A DNA stretch of 64,000 nt from Bryobacterales bacterium F-183 (lineage in GTDB: Bacteria; Acidobacteriota; Terriglobia; Bryobacterales; Bryobacteraceae): positions 124,001 to 188,000 of the forward strand of contig AP025252.1 of assembly GCA_016865505.2 (NCBI GenBank), given 5' to 3'. The position numbers and the translations under genes were made by a program. A model generated the notes under the pieces. The model searched no databases. It was not told the DNA's origin and saw only the letters and a list, made by a program, of their open reading frames with translations. Shown here piece after piece: positions 26,212 through 31,887 of the stretch. The first letter of the stretch is position 1. Every line of letters starts with the position of its first letter.

Positions 26212-27885
26212 ATGCAACCGCAGCAGGGCCCCCCGGCATCACTCACTATTCGTACGCCCGACGGCAAGAATTCGAACGTACCGCTGGACCGGACGTCGTT
26301 TGTCTTGGGGCGATCGAGTTCATCCGACCTATGTTTTGCTGACGACACCGGGTTGTCGCGCAGCCACATGCAATTTGAACTAACGCCCAGCGGCTGGGTG
26401 GTTCGTGACATGGGCAGCAAGAACGGCACTGTCCTGAACGGCCACAAGCTAGGCGCGGACGCGGTGCTGCTGAATGGCGGCGATCGTGTATCGGCCGGGC
26501 ACCTGATCATCGAGTTCAATGCAGCGGCGCGTGTGAGCAAAACCACCAACACCGTTGTATTTGTGGAGCGGAATTCCGAGCCCATCACGGCTGCCACGAC
26601 TGTACAGGCGAGCCTTGAAGGCTTCATGGGGCAAGAGAAGATCGACCCCACGAAGACGCACGTAATGCAGGGCAACCCGCAGTTGCGCGCACTGGTTCGC
26701 GCGGCGCGAGAGTTGACGAGCCATCGTCCGCTGGCCGAAGTCTTCGAAGTGATCATGGATCTTTCGATGGAGGCTGTGGCGGCGGGGCGCGGCGTGCTGA
26801 TGTCGCAAGAAGACGGCGAGTTGCAGGTGCGGGCGATTCGCGGCGAGGGCTTTCAGATCAGTTCGGCCGTGCGCGATCAGGTGCTGCGGAACCGGGAGTC
26901 GATCCTGGTTCGGGATACGTCGCTTGAAGAGGCGTTTCGTGAGCGGAAGAGCATTGTCGCGCAGCAGGTGAAGAGCATGCTGGCGGTGCCGCTGCAGACG
27001 AACGATCGCGTGATCGGGCTGATTTATCTGGATTCGCCGAACATGGTGCGGCAGTTTACGCGCGAGGATTTGAACCTGCTGACGGTTATGGCAAACGTCG
27101 CGGCGATTCGAATCGAGCATGCGCGACTCGCTGAGGTAGAAGAGAACGAGCGCTTTTACGCCAAAGAACTTTCGCAGGCGGCGACGATTCAGCAGGGGCT
27201 GCTGCCGTCAGGTCCGCCAAATGTGGAAGGGTACAGCATCTGCGGGTACAACGCGCCTTGCCGTACGGTGGGCGGCGATTACTACGACTTTCTATCGTTC
27301 CCGGATGGCAACATCGGATTGATTGTCGCGGACGTGTCCGGCAAGGGATTGCCGGCGTCGCTGATGATGACGAGCTTGCAGGCGAGCGTACAGGTGCTGT
27401 TTGAAGACGGGCGCAATCTGGCAGGCAAGGTCACGAAGCTGAACTCGGCGGTGTCGCGCAATTGCCCGGCGGGCAAGTTCATTACGTTCTTCATGGGCGT
27501 ACTGAATCCGCATACGGGGCAGTTTACGTACTGCAATGCTGGCCATAATCCGCCGTTGATTGTGCGCGCCGATGGTCGCGTCGAGAAGTTGGATGCGGGC
27601 GGGATCGTGCTGGGTATTCTGCCGTTTTCGGACTTTGATCAGCGTACGGTGGAGATCGAGCCGGGCGACATCATCGTGATGTATTCGGATGGTGTGACCG
27701 AGCAATTTGCGCCCGATCAGGACGAGGAGTTTGGCGAGGATCGCATTGGCGAGGTGGTGCTGCGGCATCGCAATGCCAAGGTGTCCGACCTGGTGGGGAT
27801 CATCAAAGAGTCCGTAGCCGCGTTTACACATAACGCTCCGGCGGCGGACGACTTTACGCTGCTGATTGCGCGACGCGACGCTTAG
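26212..27885 (+). CDS. FHA - GAF - SpoIIE (PP2C-type) phosphatase
   Basis: A 557-residue cytoplasmic protein. The FHA domain at about 10-105 shows GRSSSSDLCFADDTGLSRSH and DMGSKNGTVLNG, the phosphothreonine-binding loops. A GAF domain spans about 165-310. The SpoIIE/RsbU-type phosphatase domain spans about 335-555, with VGGDYYDF, LIVADVSGKGLPAS, NAGHNPP and VMYSDGVTEQ supplying the metal-binding Asp and Gly residues. Such proteins read Ser/Thr-kinase signals through FHA and dephosphorylate anti-anti-sigma proteins. No anti-sigma pair is adjacent. It converges with the histidine kinase gene, their stop codons overlapping by four bases (TTAG). Confidence 0.9.
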   Translation: MQPQQGPPASLTIRTPDGKNSNVPLDRTSFVLGRSSSSDLCFADDTGLSRSHMQFELTPSGWVVRDMGSKNGTVLNGHKLGADAVLLNGGDRVSAGHLIIEFNAAARVSKTTNTVVFVERNSEPITAATTVQASLEGFMGQEKIDPTKTHVMQGNPQLRALVRAARELTSHRPLAEVFEVIMDLSMEAVAAGRGVLMSQEDGELQVRAIRGEGFQISSAVRDQVLRNRESILVRDTSLEEAFRERKSIVAQQVKSMLAVPLQTNDRVIGLIYLDSPNMVRQFTREDLNLLTVMANVAAIRIEHARLAEVEENERFYAKELSQAATIQQGLLPSGPPNVEGYSICGYNAPCRTVGGDYYDFLSFPDGNIGLIVADVSGKGLPASLMMTSLQASVQVLFEDGRNLAGKVTKLNSAVSRNCPAGKFITFFMGVLNPHTGQFTYCNAGHNPPLIVRADGRVEKLDAGGIVLGILPFSDFDQRTVEIEPGDIIVMYSDGVTEQFAPDQDEEFGEDRIGEVVLRHRNAKVSDLVGIIKESVAAFTHNAPAADDFTLLIARRDA

Positions 27886-29297
27886 GCTACGCTGAGCGGG
27901 ATGCGGACCTGAAACACGGTCCGGCCGGGCGCGGATTCGAGGCGGATCTGCGCTTTGTGATTCTGCAGGATGCGGCGTACGATGTCGAGGCCGAGACCTG
28001 TGCCTTCTCCCACTTTCTTGGTGGTGAAGAAGGGTTCAAAGATACGGCCTTGCAGCTCTGCGGGGATGCCGGGGCCGTTGTCCGCTACTTCTACCAATAC
28101 ATAGCCCGGTTCGAGACTGGTGCGTACTTCGATGCGCTGCGGCTTGCCTGGAGTGGGATGCTCTTTGAGCGCGGAGATCGCGTTGTCGATGAGGTTGGTC
28201 CACACCTGGTTGAGTTCGCTGCCATTGCCGGGGATCTTGGGGAGGTTGCCGGCGAAGTGTTTTTCGAGTTGAATCTTGGCGTCCTTCAGCTTGTGCTGGA
28301 AGAGACGTAATGTCACTTCGATGCCGGGTTCGATTTCCACCTCAGTGAGCGCGCCGCGATCCATGTAGGAGTACGACTTCATGGCTTTGACGAGTTCTGA
28401 GATGCGGCGGAGGCCGTCCTCAATTTCGCTGGTGAGGCAGTGGATCTGACGGTCTGCCGCGAGGATGCGGAGGACCCGGGCGAAGTTTTCGCGATCGAGT
28501 TTCCCGGCGAGCGGCTTGAGGTCGTCCATGGTGATGCCGGCGTCGATGAGGTCGCCGGCGTACTCGCTGGTGGAGCCGTACTGGTCAAGCCAGTCTCCGA
28601 AGTCGCTTTCGAGATCGGCGCGATCGAGGGCGTCCATTTCGGGCGGAGGGTCGCAGCCGGCGATGCGGTCGGCGAGATCGGTGATGTCGCGGCCGGTCTG
28701 GGGATCGAGGGGCTGGGAGCGGAGTTCGATGCCGATGGTGCGGCGAATGTCGAGAGCCTCGCGCAGGAGCGCGGCGGAGCGTACGGCAGCGGAGGCGGGG
28801 TTGTTTATTTCGTGGGCGAGGCCGGCGGCCATCTTGCCCAGGGCCTGGAGCTTGGACGAACGCTCGCCGAGACGTGCGAAGTCCCGGGTACGGTCGATCA
28901 TTTCCTGCACGAGGCGTTCGGCAAACAGCGGGGCGCGATAGACGAGTTCGCGAAGTTCAGAGTCCGGCATCGCGGCGAGACGCGTGGGTTGTACGGCGGT
29001 ACCGCGGGCAAGAACGTTCTTGATGCGGGAGAACGGGAGCTTGCCGGTAGCCTGGCCCTTGGTGCGAATGAAGAGCGCTGCGTAGGGATCTTCGGGGACG
29101 CGGAAGTGGACCTCGCCATCGAGGACGAGCCAGAGTTCATCGGCGGCGGAGTTCATTTCCGCGATGATGTCGCCGGTTTCGAAGCAGTGGATCTGGAAGC
29201 GCTCGGCGAGCCAGGCGATGGCCGCGGGGTCTTCTCCTTCCATGATGGGAAGGCTGGCGAGTTCTTCCGCGGTGGGGCGCGTGCAGGGCTGTTCCAT
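27882..29297 (-). CDS. soluble histidine kinase with N-terminal cyclic-nucleotide-binding-like domain
   Basis: Start at 29297, eight bases after the preceding gene's stop. The 471-residue protein has a CRP-like beta-roll at about 35-140 ([24 protein letters not shown]). HisKA follows with [18 protein letters not shown], phosphoacceptor His162, then a long helical segment and a HATPase_c domain at about 350-470 ([39 protein letters not shown]). There is no membrane segment. The kinase should phosphorylate the REC domain of the flavoprotein encoded just upstream. Classic cAMP-contacting Arg and Ser residues of the beta-roll are not obvious, so the bound ligand may differ. Confidence 0.9.
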
Positions 29298-29305
29298 GTG
29301 GGTGC

Positions 29306-30967
29306 TTATCGATTGAGCATGTACTGGTTGATGAAGTAGAGCACGATGGAGCCTTCTCCGACGCTGTTGGCGACACGGCGTACGGCACCGTCGCGAACGT
29401 CGCCTACGGCGAAGACGCCGGGGATGTTGGTTTCGAGAAGCGCGGGGTCGCGATCGAGGTTCCAGCCTGGCGGTCGGCGGCCACCTTCGCCGAGGAGGTT
29501 GCGACCGGTGACGAGGAAGCCTCGCGAGTCGCGCATGAGGACGCCGTCGAGCCACTCGGTTTGGGGTTCCGCACCGATGAAGACGAATAAGGCGGCGGCT
29601 TCGCGATCCTGCTTGACGCCGGTACGGTGGTTGAGGACGGTGATGGATTCGAGGCGGTCCGCACCGCGTACTTCGGTGACCTCGGTGTGGGTTTCCACGT
29701 GGATGTTGGGGATGGTGCGGATGCGCTCGACGAGATAGTGCGACATCGACTTGGAGAGCGATTCAGCACGAACGAGCATGGTGACCGAACGAGCGAGTTC
29801 GGCGAAGTGTACGGCAGCCTGGCCCGCGGAGTTGGCGCCACCGATGATGTAGACGTCTTCGTCCTTGCAGGACGAGGCTTCTGTGATGGCGGCGCCGTAG
29901 TAGACGCCAGCCCCGGTGAGTTGATCCATACCCGGAATGTCGAGACGGCGCCACTGTACGCCTGCGGCGATGACAACGGCGTGGGCGACGAGTTCTTGGC
30001 CGTTCGAGAGCTTGACCTTCTTGTATCCTTCGTCGATTTGGAGACTGATGGCTCGGGCAGGGGCGATGATTTCCGTACCGAACCGCTTGACCTGGGAGAC
30101 GCCGCGACGGGCGAGGTCCGAACCGCTGAGGCCGGAGGGGAAGCCGAGGTAGTTTTCGATGCGTGAGCTGAGGCCTGCCTGGCCGCCCGGAGCTTCACTT
30201 TCGACGAGGATGGTCTTGCGGCCCTCGGTGCTGCAGTAAAGAGCGGCCGCGAGGCCGGCGGGTCCGCCACCGATGATGATGACGTCGTAGAGGTCGCGAG
30301 CGGGGGTCGCGGCGAGGCCGAGTTTGTTGGCGACATCGGCGACCTGCGGTTTTTCCAATACTGTACCGTCGGGGAAGATGACGGCGGGTAGAGCATCGGC
30401 TTTATCGCCGATGGCGGCGTCGATGCGAGGGTCCGAGGTGGAGCCGGGTTCAATCCAACGGTACGGAATCTGGCTTTTGGCGAGGAAATTCTTGAGGTCG
30501 TGGGTGGCGGGGGCCCAACGGGTGCCGACCACGTAGATGCCGTCAAACGATTCCTGGCTGGTGGCGGCCCAATCTTCCAGAAGGTCCGCAAGCACGGGGA
30601 AGAGGCCCTGTTCCGGCGGTTCCCAGGGCTTCATCAAATAGTGATTGAGGCGGACTTTGTTGATGGCGTCGATGGCGGCGTCGGAATCCGCGTAGGCCGT
30701 CAAAAGGACGCGCCGGGCATCGGGCTGCATGATCAGGGCTTGTTCGAGAAACTCGGTGCCACTGATGTTAGGCATGCGCTGGTCGACGAGAAAGAGCGCG
30801 ATGCGGTCTCCACGAGCCGTCATTTGCTTGACGAGGTCGAGGGCTTTTTCCGGGGTGTTGGCGGCAAGGATGCGATAGGTCGACGCGAACTTGGCTTTCA
30901 GGTCGCGTTCGACGGCGCGGAGGACCGTCGTGTCGTCATCCACGGCCAGAATATATGGCTTTTTCAT
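29306..30967 (-). CDS. response regulator fused to a thioredoxin-reductase-like flavoprotein
   Basis: The 553-residue chain has three parts. Residues 1-125 are a REC domain with Asp11/12, phosphoacceptor Asp62 (FLVDQRMP), Thr90 and Lys113 (MKPW). Residues about 143-220 resemble a glutaredoxin-like fold (IYVVGTRWAPATHDLKNFL), but the CxxC is absent. Residues 228-553 are a two-domain FAD/NAD(P)H oxidoreductase with GGGPAG (233-238), GGQAGLSS, and IIGGANSAGQAA for the second nucleotide. The thioredoxin-reductase CxxC is also lost: YYGAAITEASSC stands in its place (about 356-367). So it is a phosphorylation-controlled flavoenzyme or redox sensor rather than a thioredoxin reductase. Spacing of eight bases to both neighbours makes an operon. 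Confidence 0.9.
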   Translation of the reverse strand: MKKPYILAVDDDTTVLRAVERDLKAKFASTYRILAANTPEKALDLVKQMTARGDRIALFLVDQRMPNISGTEFLEQALIMQPDARRVLLTAYADSDAAIDAINKVRLNHYLMKPWEPPEQGLFPVLADLLEDWAATSQESFDGIYVVGTRWAPATHDLKNFLAKSQIPYRWIEPGSTSDPRIDAAIGDKADALPAVIFPDGTVLEKPQVADVANKLGLAATPARDLYDVIIIGGGPAGLAAALYCSTEGRKTILVESEAPGGQAGLSSRIENYLGFPSGLSGSDLARRGVSQVKRFGTEIIAPARAISLQIDEGYKKVKLSNGQELVAHAVVIAAGVQWRRLDIPGMDQLTGAGVYYGAAITEASSCKDEDVYIIGGANSAGQAAVHFAELARSVTMLVRAESLSKSMSHYLVERIRTIPNIHVETHTEVTEVRGADRLESITVLNHRTGVKQDREAAALFVFIGAEPQTEWLDGVLMRDSRGFLVTGRNLLGEGGRRPPGWNLDRDPALLETNIPGVFAVGDVRDGAVRRVANSVGEGSIVLYFINQYMLNR

Positions 30968-30975
30968 TCGAGAAT

Positions 30976-31887
30976 TTACTTGGCGAACTGGTCTAGTGCG
31001 GCGCGCAACTCCGCGTCCCGCATGATGCCGGGATGGTAGACGCGAACAAGGCCTGCGCGATCGATCAGGACGACGGTCGGGGTCGTAGATGAACCGTAAT
31101 TGCGGAACGTCTCTTCGTCGAGAGGCACCGGCATATCAAGTAAAGCAGAATAGGAGCGATTTCGGACCTGGTCAATATAACTGGTTTCTGTCTTTTCGTC
31201 GGCGTCTTCACCGCCTGCGACGTAGCCGTAGTGCTGGGTGGGTCCGATGATGACGAGGTCTTTGTAGCTCTTGCGGACTTCTGCGAGGACGGGGCCCTGG
31301 TACTTGCAGTCTCCACACCAGTGGGCCCAGAAGAAGAGGACGACGGGCTTGCCCTTGTAGGCGGATAGCGGCTGCGGCTTGGGGCCGAGGTACTTGGTGA
31401 TGCCGAGGGCGGGAGCGGGCTTGCCTTCGAGACTCAGCAAGTTAATGTTCTTTTGGATGCGCGTGCGGATGGAGGTGTTGCGGTAGAGCTTGAGCTGCTG
31501 TTCGAGATACTGCACGGCCTGGTCGCGCTGGCCTTGGGCGGCGAGCACCTGCCCTCGTACTTCAATCGCGGCGCCGAGGGCAATGGGAAGGTGCTGTTCT
31601 TCGTCGAGGTTGCCTTTTTGGCGCTTCAACTGTTTCTGGGCGAGGTCGTAGGTTTGACGGGCGAACTCGTCGGCTTTGTCGTAGTTCTTCTGCTTGAGTT
31701 GGCCGCGGGCCATCCAACTGACGGCGGCGATCATTTCGGGGTTCTCGCCTTTGGCCTTGCGGTGAGCCTCGATGAGGGACGCACCTTTTGCGAAGTCTTT
31801 GGCGTCGATGGCTTCGCGGACTTCATTGATCAGCGCGGCGGCGCACGTTGCCGCGGAAATCACAAAAGCGAGGGTGAGCACACGCAT
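30976..31887 (-). CDS. exported thioredoxin-fold (TlpA/AhpC-like) protein with N-terminal helical repeats
   Basis: Start at 31887, where a signal peptide begins (MRVLTLAFVISAATCAAAL). The 303-residue product has a helical, TPR-like region at about 20-150 and a thioredoxin-fold domain at about 160-303. The active site CxxC is WCGDC, with Cys191 and Cys194. STTPTVVLID follows with the cis-Pro. It should act on disulfides in the periplasm. It is the first gene of the three-gene operon with the REC-flavoprotein and histidine kinase, which links extracytoplasmic thiol chemistry to that signalling pair by position. Confidence 0.88.
   Translation of the reverse strand: MRVLTLAFVISAATCAAALINEVREAIDAKDFAKGASLIEAHRKAKGENPEMIAAVSWMARGQLKQKNYDKADEFARQTYDLAQKQLKRQKGNLDEEQHLPIALGAAIEVRGQVLAAQGQRDQAVQYLEQQLKLYRNTSIRTRIQKNINLLSLEGKPAPALGITKYLGPKPQPLSAYKGKPVVLFFWAHWCGDCKYQGPVLAEVRKSYKDLVIIGPTQHYGYVAGGEDADEKTETSYIDQVRNRSYSALLDMPVPLDEETFRNYGSSTTPTVVLIDRAGLVRVYHPGIMRDAELRAALDQFAK

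Follow-up and report, generated by a model that had tools for sequence, protein, structure and literature searches.

A receiver-linked, thioredoxin-reductase-like protein without redox cysteines and its partner kinase in Bryobacterales bacterium F-183

The locus and its three proteins

The window analysed here is a stretch of 64,000 nucleotides from Bryobacterales bacterium F-183 (GenBank assembly GCA_016865505.2, contig AP025252.1, positions 124,001 to 188,000). Its minus strand carries, head to tail, the genes of three proteins, P0001, P0002 and P0003 (Table 1). The last two form the core unit, which recurs in Acidobacteriota, Cyanobacteria, Actinomycetota, Deinococcus and Burkholderiales and is comprised of a histidine kinase (P0003) and a protein in which a receiver is followed by a thioredoxin (Trx)-fold part and a thioredoxin reductase (TrxR)-like part (P0002, designated RR-TR together with its relatives). 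In P0002 neither part has the CxxC motif. The reading frames and both eight-base spacers between stop codon and ATG, ATTCTCGA and GCACCCAC, agree with a preliminary description of the same DNA, and the residues and motifs listed there are correct.

That a receiver and a flavin domain share one chain was borne out by the Pfam matches of P0002 to Response_reg (8.9e-13) and Pyr_redox_2 (7.1e-40); D62, T90 and K113 of the receiver are all present. The part between them had been called glutaredoxin-like. In the AlphaFold model of P0002 (mean pLDDT 76.5, 26-row alignment) strands and helices do alternate in residues 144-216, but the family assignment by sequence is weak: of 26 RR-TR rows, 7 have a Pfam Glutaredoxin match at E <= 0.1, none better than 0.0025, and the family is not listed for P0002. 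The top Foldseek matches of the model are TrxR and AhpF. Full-length relatives at 49-74% identity exist in several phyla, which makes the observation more than a chance one.

P0003 was described as a soluble histidine kinase with a cyclic nucleotide (cNMP)-binding-like domain, and this is supported. HATPase_c matches at 1.4e-24, and HisKA stays below its cut-off (19.5 vs 26.9 bits). No clear transmembrane stretch was seen, the highest 19-residue hydropathy being 0.8. The match of P0003 to cNMP_binding is weak (1.1e-3, 19.3 bits vs a cut-off of 27.5) and the domain is degenerate; in the related kinases it is clear, with matches in 23 of 23 at E <= 0.1 and a best value of 1.2e-21. H162, N372, D406, G408, G410, G434 and G436 are invariant in the same 23 rows. 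The AlphaFold model has a mean pLDDT of 87.7, and its top Foldseek matches are LvrB, HK853 and other kinase cores. The cassette region of the cNMP domain is LPFSRMK-like in the group of the window and GELSMLTG-like in three cyanobacterial kinases (L046, L039, L049); it apparently lacks the usual Arg of such cassettes. The helical insert of the kinase (Table 1) is shorter in L033-L035.

P0001 matches Pfam AhpC-TSA and Redoxin above their cut-offs and remains below all NCBIfam cut-offs listed. The description of P0001 as an exported Trx-fold protein with C191-G-D-C194 is right as to the CxxC, and the N-terminus is signal-like, as judged by hydropathy alone. Its inclusion in a redox-coupled system was not supported. 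Among the fetched loci the matches to P0001 come from the window and one genome of the same genus (L017, L052), apart from one of 35 residues in L029. The search for the same gene order thus found RR-TR with its kinase widely, and P0001 alongside only within the genus. P0001 belongs to the same operon by spacing, yet is not a conserved part of the RR-TR/kinase system, and its candidacy as a core member was rejected.

Table 1. Features of the locus, with positions in the window
Feature	Position	Strand	Length or residues	Remarks
P0001, TlpA/ResA-like thiol oxidoreductase	30976-31887	minus	303 aa	hydrophobic N-terminus, weak TPR matches
P0002, RR-TR (receiver–Trx-fold–TrxR-like)	29306-30967	minus	553 aa	
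P0002, receiver			residues ~5-130	
P0002, Trx/glutaredoxin-like domain			residues ~140-220	cysteine-free
P0002, TrxR-like FAD/NAD(P)H domain			residues ~225-553	
P0002, position of the lost CxxC in the reductase domain	29867-29902	minus	residues 356-367	YYGAAITEASSC; coordinates from the reading frame
P0003, partner histidine kinase	27882-29297	minus	471 aa	
P0003, cNMP-binding domain			residues ~39-119	degenerate
P0003, DHp helices				with H162
P0003, helical insert	28500-28703		residues 199-266	four helices between the two long DHp helices of the model
P0003, HATPase_c			residues 359-469	
Convergent gene	26212-27885			FHA, GAF, PP2C-phosphatase-like (authors' reading of the sequence, without family search); its stop codon and that of the kinase gene overlap by two bases (27882-27885)

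Loss of the redox cysteines in the family

The absence of cysteines from the glutaredoxin-like site (WAPATHDLK, from residue 151) and from the reductase site (YYGAAITEASSC, from residue 356) was confirmed for P0002. When the missing cysteines were sought elsewhere in the chain, only C245 and C367 were found; there is no CxxC, and the Trx-fold part holds no cysteine at all. A359 and T362 align with the two cysteines of TrxB, and E363 aligns with the Asp that follows the second of them and serves as the acid catalyst in that enzyme.

The relatives were counted in two sets: 16 "orphan" proteins, picked by hand because no kinase was seen and scores were lower, and 98 others, which include P0002 itself and L212 (no kinase, 408 bases of room). 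L230, a frame with an internal stop, was excluded by the filter from the receiver counts. At the reductase site neither the 98 nor the 16 orphans show a single CxxC; the motif is present in all five ungapped rows among eight TrxB rows. With 0 of 114 relatives carrying it, the cysteine loss is a trait of the family and not a peculiarity of P0002. Among the 98, the first cysteine of TrxB is aligned with A (80), S (13) or G (5) and the second with T (73), S (16), A (4), V (4) or E (1), and the column after it is acidic almost throughout (E in 93, D in 3). P0002 also scores below the NCBIfam cut-offs for TrxR (TIGR01292, 219.1 vs 343.45 bits) and for AhpF (TIGR03140, 170.1 vs 502.9 bits).

C367 is kept in 86 of the 98 and replaced in the remaining 12 (by Y, T, V and F among others); in a separate row set it is present in 58 of 64 RR-TR and in 17 of 25 rows labelled cNMP-TR, the cNMP-fused relatives discussed below. 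It is replaced in 15 of the 16 orphans. An essential catalytic role for C367 was considered and rejected, the position being variable among relatives. CxxC occurs elsewhere in the chain in 17 of the 64 RR-TR, the 12 listed reading CHVC or CSVC, as well as in 3 of the 25 cNMP-TR rows.

Kinase linkage, orphan receivers and cNMP-fused relatives

The RR-TR gene is widely distributed. A tblastn search of 72,556 plasmid records returned ten at >= 80% coverage and 48-53% identity, from Deinococcus, cyanobacteria, Burkholderiales and Actinomycetota. Scanning genome contigs yielded 25 RR-TR loci, of which 12 are acidobacterial and 8 cyanobacterial by record title. A profile of 26 RR-TR rows (A2), used for the genome searches, gave matches spanning position 1-3 to 550 in 47 of 396 Acidobacteriota genomes (authors' count). 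At E <= 1e-150 it matched 8 of 194 genomes in the phylum of L046 (Fischerella) and, in the Actinomycetota, to which L045 (Rubrobacter) belongs, 47 of 296, the orphan clade included.

The suggestion that the receiver has a kinase of its own was supported by gene linkage. In a kinase-profile search, 58 of 69 RR-TR rows had a P0003-type kinase gene on the same strand, <= 500 bases downstream. The figure is 54 of 63 after removal of repeated rows (L005, L009 and L062 are all the window, L010/L033 and L075/L076 have identical proteins, and L096 shares the position of L042) and of L047, which has no room. The nine exceptions fall into three kinds: the kinase lies upstream in L041, L042 and L071, is farther off in L049 and L056, and is not found in the stretch in L016, L038, L040 and L043; the genomes of the last three have a P0003-type kinase elsewhere. 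In wider stretches of about 8 kb, largely of the same loci, a kinase is present on either side in 39 of 40, L275 having none.

Apart from the kinase, no widespread neighbour was found in 31 loci, the commonest being a short-chain-dehydrogenase-like gene (5, by the authors' reading) and LtrA (3). In loci of Deinococcus and cyanobacteria (L054, L060, L049, L056) a gene for LtrA (low temperature requirement protein A) lies close to the pair. Several loci (L237-L241, L276, L054, L057, L049) hold a second partner-type kinase near one RR-TR gene. A small gene, named UBP-type zinc finger after the annotation of L058 and L059, adjoins RR-TR and kinase in 10 of 20 stretches from Actinomycetota, 1 of 18 from Acidobacteriota and 0 of 2 from cyanobacteria; the cyanobacterial loci L185 and L049 have it as well, as do 3 of 31 loci labelled cNMP-TR (loci with the gene: L242, L243, L245, L247, L248, L249, L251, L252, L253, L256; L262; L185; L113, L114, L121). 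Its product is a candidate third component.

Conservation of the receiver differs between the two sets. D10, D11, D62, T90 and K113 are each found in 98 of 98 RR-TR outside the orphan clade, as are N379, Q383, R400, S409 and Y411 in or after the second dinucleotide motif. The 16 orphans, all actinobacterial (L217-L229, L233-L235), have no kinase in their stretches and form one clade with a support of 0.982. Their receivers are decayed, with D62 in 8, T90 in 1 and K113 in 11 of 16, and their flavin core is intact, Y357, N379, Q383, Y411, W472 and D523 being kept in all 16. One genome (G458) has both an orphan and an intact RR-TR, and its single partner-type kinase at E <= 1e-30 adjoins the intact one. 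We read this pattern as a sign that phosphotransfer is under selection where the receiver has a kinase to serve it, and that the flavin function would be independent of phosphotransfer.

The nearest flavin domains belong to proteins annotated "cyclic nucleotide-binding domain-containing thioredoxin-disulfide reductase" (cNMP-TR). None of 25 rows so labelled has CxxC at the reductase site (one, L050, is really a cut RR-TR). The surroundings of cNMP-TR genes (21 stretches of 7.5-11 kb; L061, L102-L121) showed no partner-type kinase domain above 50 bits; the kinase-profile hits there are the cNMP domains of cNMP-TR itself. In a midpoint-rooted tree, with its root among six TrxB rows, RR-TR forms a single clade (0.969, including L050, a cut-contig row that the script had labelled cNMP-TR) inside a cNMP-TR grade. 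TrxB is set apart by a long branch of 2.07 substitutions per site (support 0.85). In a larger tree RR-TR is not a single clade: the eight cNMP-TR rows closest to it stand between the orphans and the other RR-TR, with supports of just 0.2-0.3.

The cNMP domains themselves were compared in FastTree trees, domains of fewer than 85 residues being dropped; 26 named loci had been removed beforehand as repeats, cut ones or kinases not beside RR-TR (e.g. L092, L094, L095, L101). In all ten trees a split places the kinases and cNMP-TR on one side and 52 of the 53 other cNMP proteins on the other. Two rows are misplaced every time: L181 groups with the former, and the kinase L045 does not. The split has a Jaccard index of ~0.975 against at most 0.645 with shuffled labels, and of 0.67-0.975 in 40 bootstrap replicates; its local support is 0.35-0.92. 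The support is modest, and the trees no more than suggest that the sensing domains of the kinases and of cNMP-TR share a recent origin. Bit scores against the kinase cNMP model were rejected as proof of kinship because the two groups overlap: cNMP-TR has a median of 69.9 and a best score of 96.0, and other cNMP proteins have a median of 55.5 and, L053 aside, a best score of 83.8. L053, at 99.3 bits, is a fragment right behind RR-TR and probably a cut kinase.

Proposed function and comparison with known systems

Taken together, sequence and gene context make it probable, though well short of certain, that RR-TR is a phosphorylation-controlled FAD/NAD(P)H oxidoreductase, not a disulfide reductase, in a two-gene signalling unit. 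The cNMP-binding-like domain of the kinase would receive an intracellular signal; the kinase would autophosphorylate at H162 and transfer the phosphoryl group to D62; and the phosphorylated or unphosphorylated receiver would control the attached domain, presumably occupied by FAD. The reduced flavin would then pass its electrons directly to another acceptor, such as a quinone, oxygen, an electron-carrier protein or a small molecule, and not by way of a CxxC pair. The earlier deduction that the output is an FAD/NAD(P)H domain, with a chemistry other than that of TrxR, thus appears sound.

Several points weigh against this assignment. An intact receiver does not always have an adjoining kinase: seven of the 98 (L016, L038, L040, L043, L047, L184, L212) show none in their stretch, although L047 and L212 lack room for one. 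The absence of a kinase was judged inside the fetched stretches alone, and the room downstream is short in some orphan rows (less than 600 bases in L218 and L225, 910 in L223). The orphans, being one clade, represent one evolutionary event and not 16. The use of NAD(P)H would follow by analogy with TrxB. Finally, the structure prediction proposed earlier shows alternating strands and helices in the glutaredoxin-like part but models the reductase site itself poorly, pLDDT being below 50 at residues 352-359, exactly at that site.

C367, kept in most members, might support a one-cysteine chemistry in these. RR-TR might then still be a thiol enzyme in which C367, or the CxxC of the TlpA-like P0001, replaces the missing cysteines. 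C367 is common in both RR-TR and cNMP-TR, and the TlpA-like gene lies just 8 bases upstream in the window; against this, C367 differs in 12 of 98 and in 15 of 16 orphans, the TlpA-like gene is confined to the genus among the fetched loci, and the signal-like N-terminus of P0001 would place it across the membrane. A thiol mechanism is therefore improbable. Still more remote, to the point of being negligible, is an ordinary TrxR mistaken for something else through an error of sequencing or alignment. TrxR is indeed the top match in sequence and structure, but the score below the family cut-off (219 vs 343 bits) and the lack of the site CxxC in all 114 relatives refute this as far as sequence can.

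A more serious alternative, if still an unlikely one, reverses the flow of information. The flavin domain would be a sensor: through its redox state or NAD(P)H occupancy it would govern either the phosphorylation state of the receiver or how active the kinase is as a phosphatase. The real output would then lie elsewhere, in another regulator or in the UBP-type zinc-finger protein. No electron acceptor is known for RR-TR, the zinc-finger gene recurs beside RR-TR (half of the actinobacterial stretches) and in a few cNMP-TR loci, and several loci hold a second kinase; all three fit a sensory flavin domain. The cNMP-fused sisters speak for the opposite direction: where RR-TR has its receiver they have an input-type domain, and no partner-type kinase domain above 50 bits was seen in any of the 21 stretches around them, which fits the flavin domain as the controlled part.

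On the phosphorylation-controlled reading, a cNMP-switched flavoenzyme may have become the output of a two-component system, the sensing domain passing to the kinase and a receiver taking its place. The response would be a change in FAD/NAD(P)H electron flow through an enzyme without redox cysteines instead of transcription, and the orphans would have been freed from phospho-control again. This history is offered tentatively, with somewhat less confidence than an even chance would warrant.

Response regulators with enzymatic outputs are few, and a redox flavoenzyme in that position would, if confirmed, tie signalling directly to electron flow. The RR-TR family is common, for example in Actinomycetota, and through its orphan clade and the cNMP-fused sisters the part played by phosphorylation can be put to the test. 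The main additions made here are that the cysteines are lost throughout the family while the acidic residue stays, that receivers have decayed in a clade with no kinase seen nearby, and that sisters fused to a cNMP-binding domain exist.

The architecture itself is already in print. P0002, in which a receiver with an intact phosphorylation site is fused to Pyr_redox_2 and whose gene is paired with a kinase gene, belongs by sequence to the catalogued "TrxB" class of response regulators. In the available text of these papers, SCO7298 of S. coelicolor is given as a TrxB-type response regulator paired with the kinase SCO7297 (PMC9739842), the class is counted in thermophilic cyanobacteria (PMC9953108), and a Mycobacterium-like combination of receiver (REC) and TrxR is noted in two Heimdallarchaeota (PMC5847659). 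The sco7298 (trxB3) transcript is induced by polysulfide, the gene not being among the four overexpressed in that study as far as its available text goes (PMC9952706), and is upregulated by acid shock (PMC2631018); the part of PMC8945050 at hand has nothing on a REC–TrxR fusion. An open-literature search turned up no study of the function of such a fusion, and a claim that nothing has been published would overreach. The earlier statement that no pathway of this form is described thus holds for function within the literature searched, and not for the architecture.

The SCO7298/SCO7297 pair resembles P0002/P0003 in joining a regulator with a TrxB-type output to a paired kinase gene. The likeness to SCO7298 is one of description, the sequence comparison having been made through a Streptomyces plasmid relative (L058, ~50% end to end). 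The missing cysteines and the function are not mentioned in the text seen of the TrxB-class papers, and the label "thioredoxin reductase", used for SCO7298 in the polysulfide and acid-shock papers and in the cNMP-TR records, is not backed by the family sequence.

Among the relatives, cNMP-TR is nearest in the trees and, like RR-TR, combines Trx-like and TrxR-like domains that both lack CxxC. It differs in having a cNMP-binding domain in place of the receiver and no partner kinase nearby (21 stretches), whereas P0002 has the receiver, and the cNMP-like domain is found in its partner kinase. Low-Mr TrxB shares with RR-TR the fold, the dinucleotide-binding motifs and the acidic residue after the second cysteine position; it differs in its CxxC and is separated by a long branch. 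AhpF, like P0002, has an N-terminal Trx-fold part and a TrxR-like domain, with CxxC in both parts, unlike P0002. TrxR-fold enzymes without CxxC do exist, namely the TrxR-like ferredoxin-NADP reductases (FNR) and the YpdA-type reductases; P0002 matches YpdA with 67 bits against 219 for TrxR and, in a separate search, the best FNR with 73 against 168 for TrxR.

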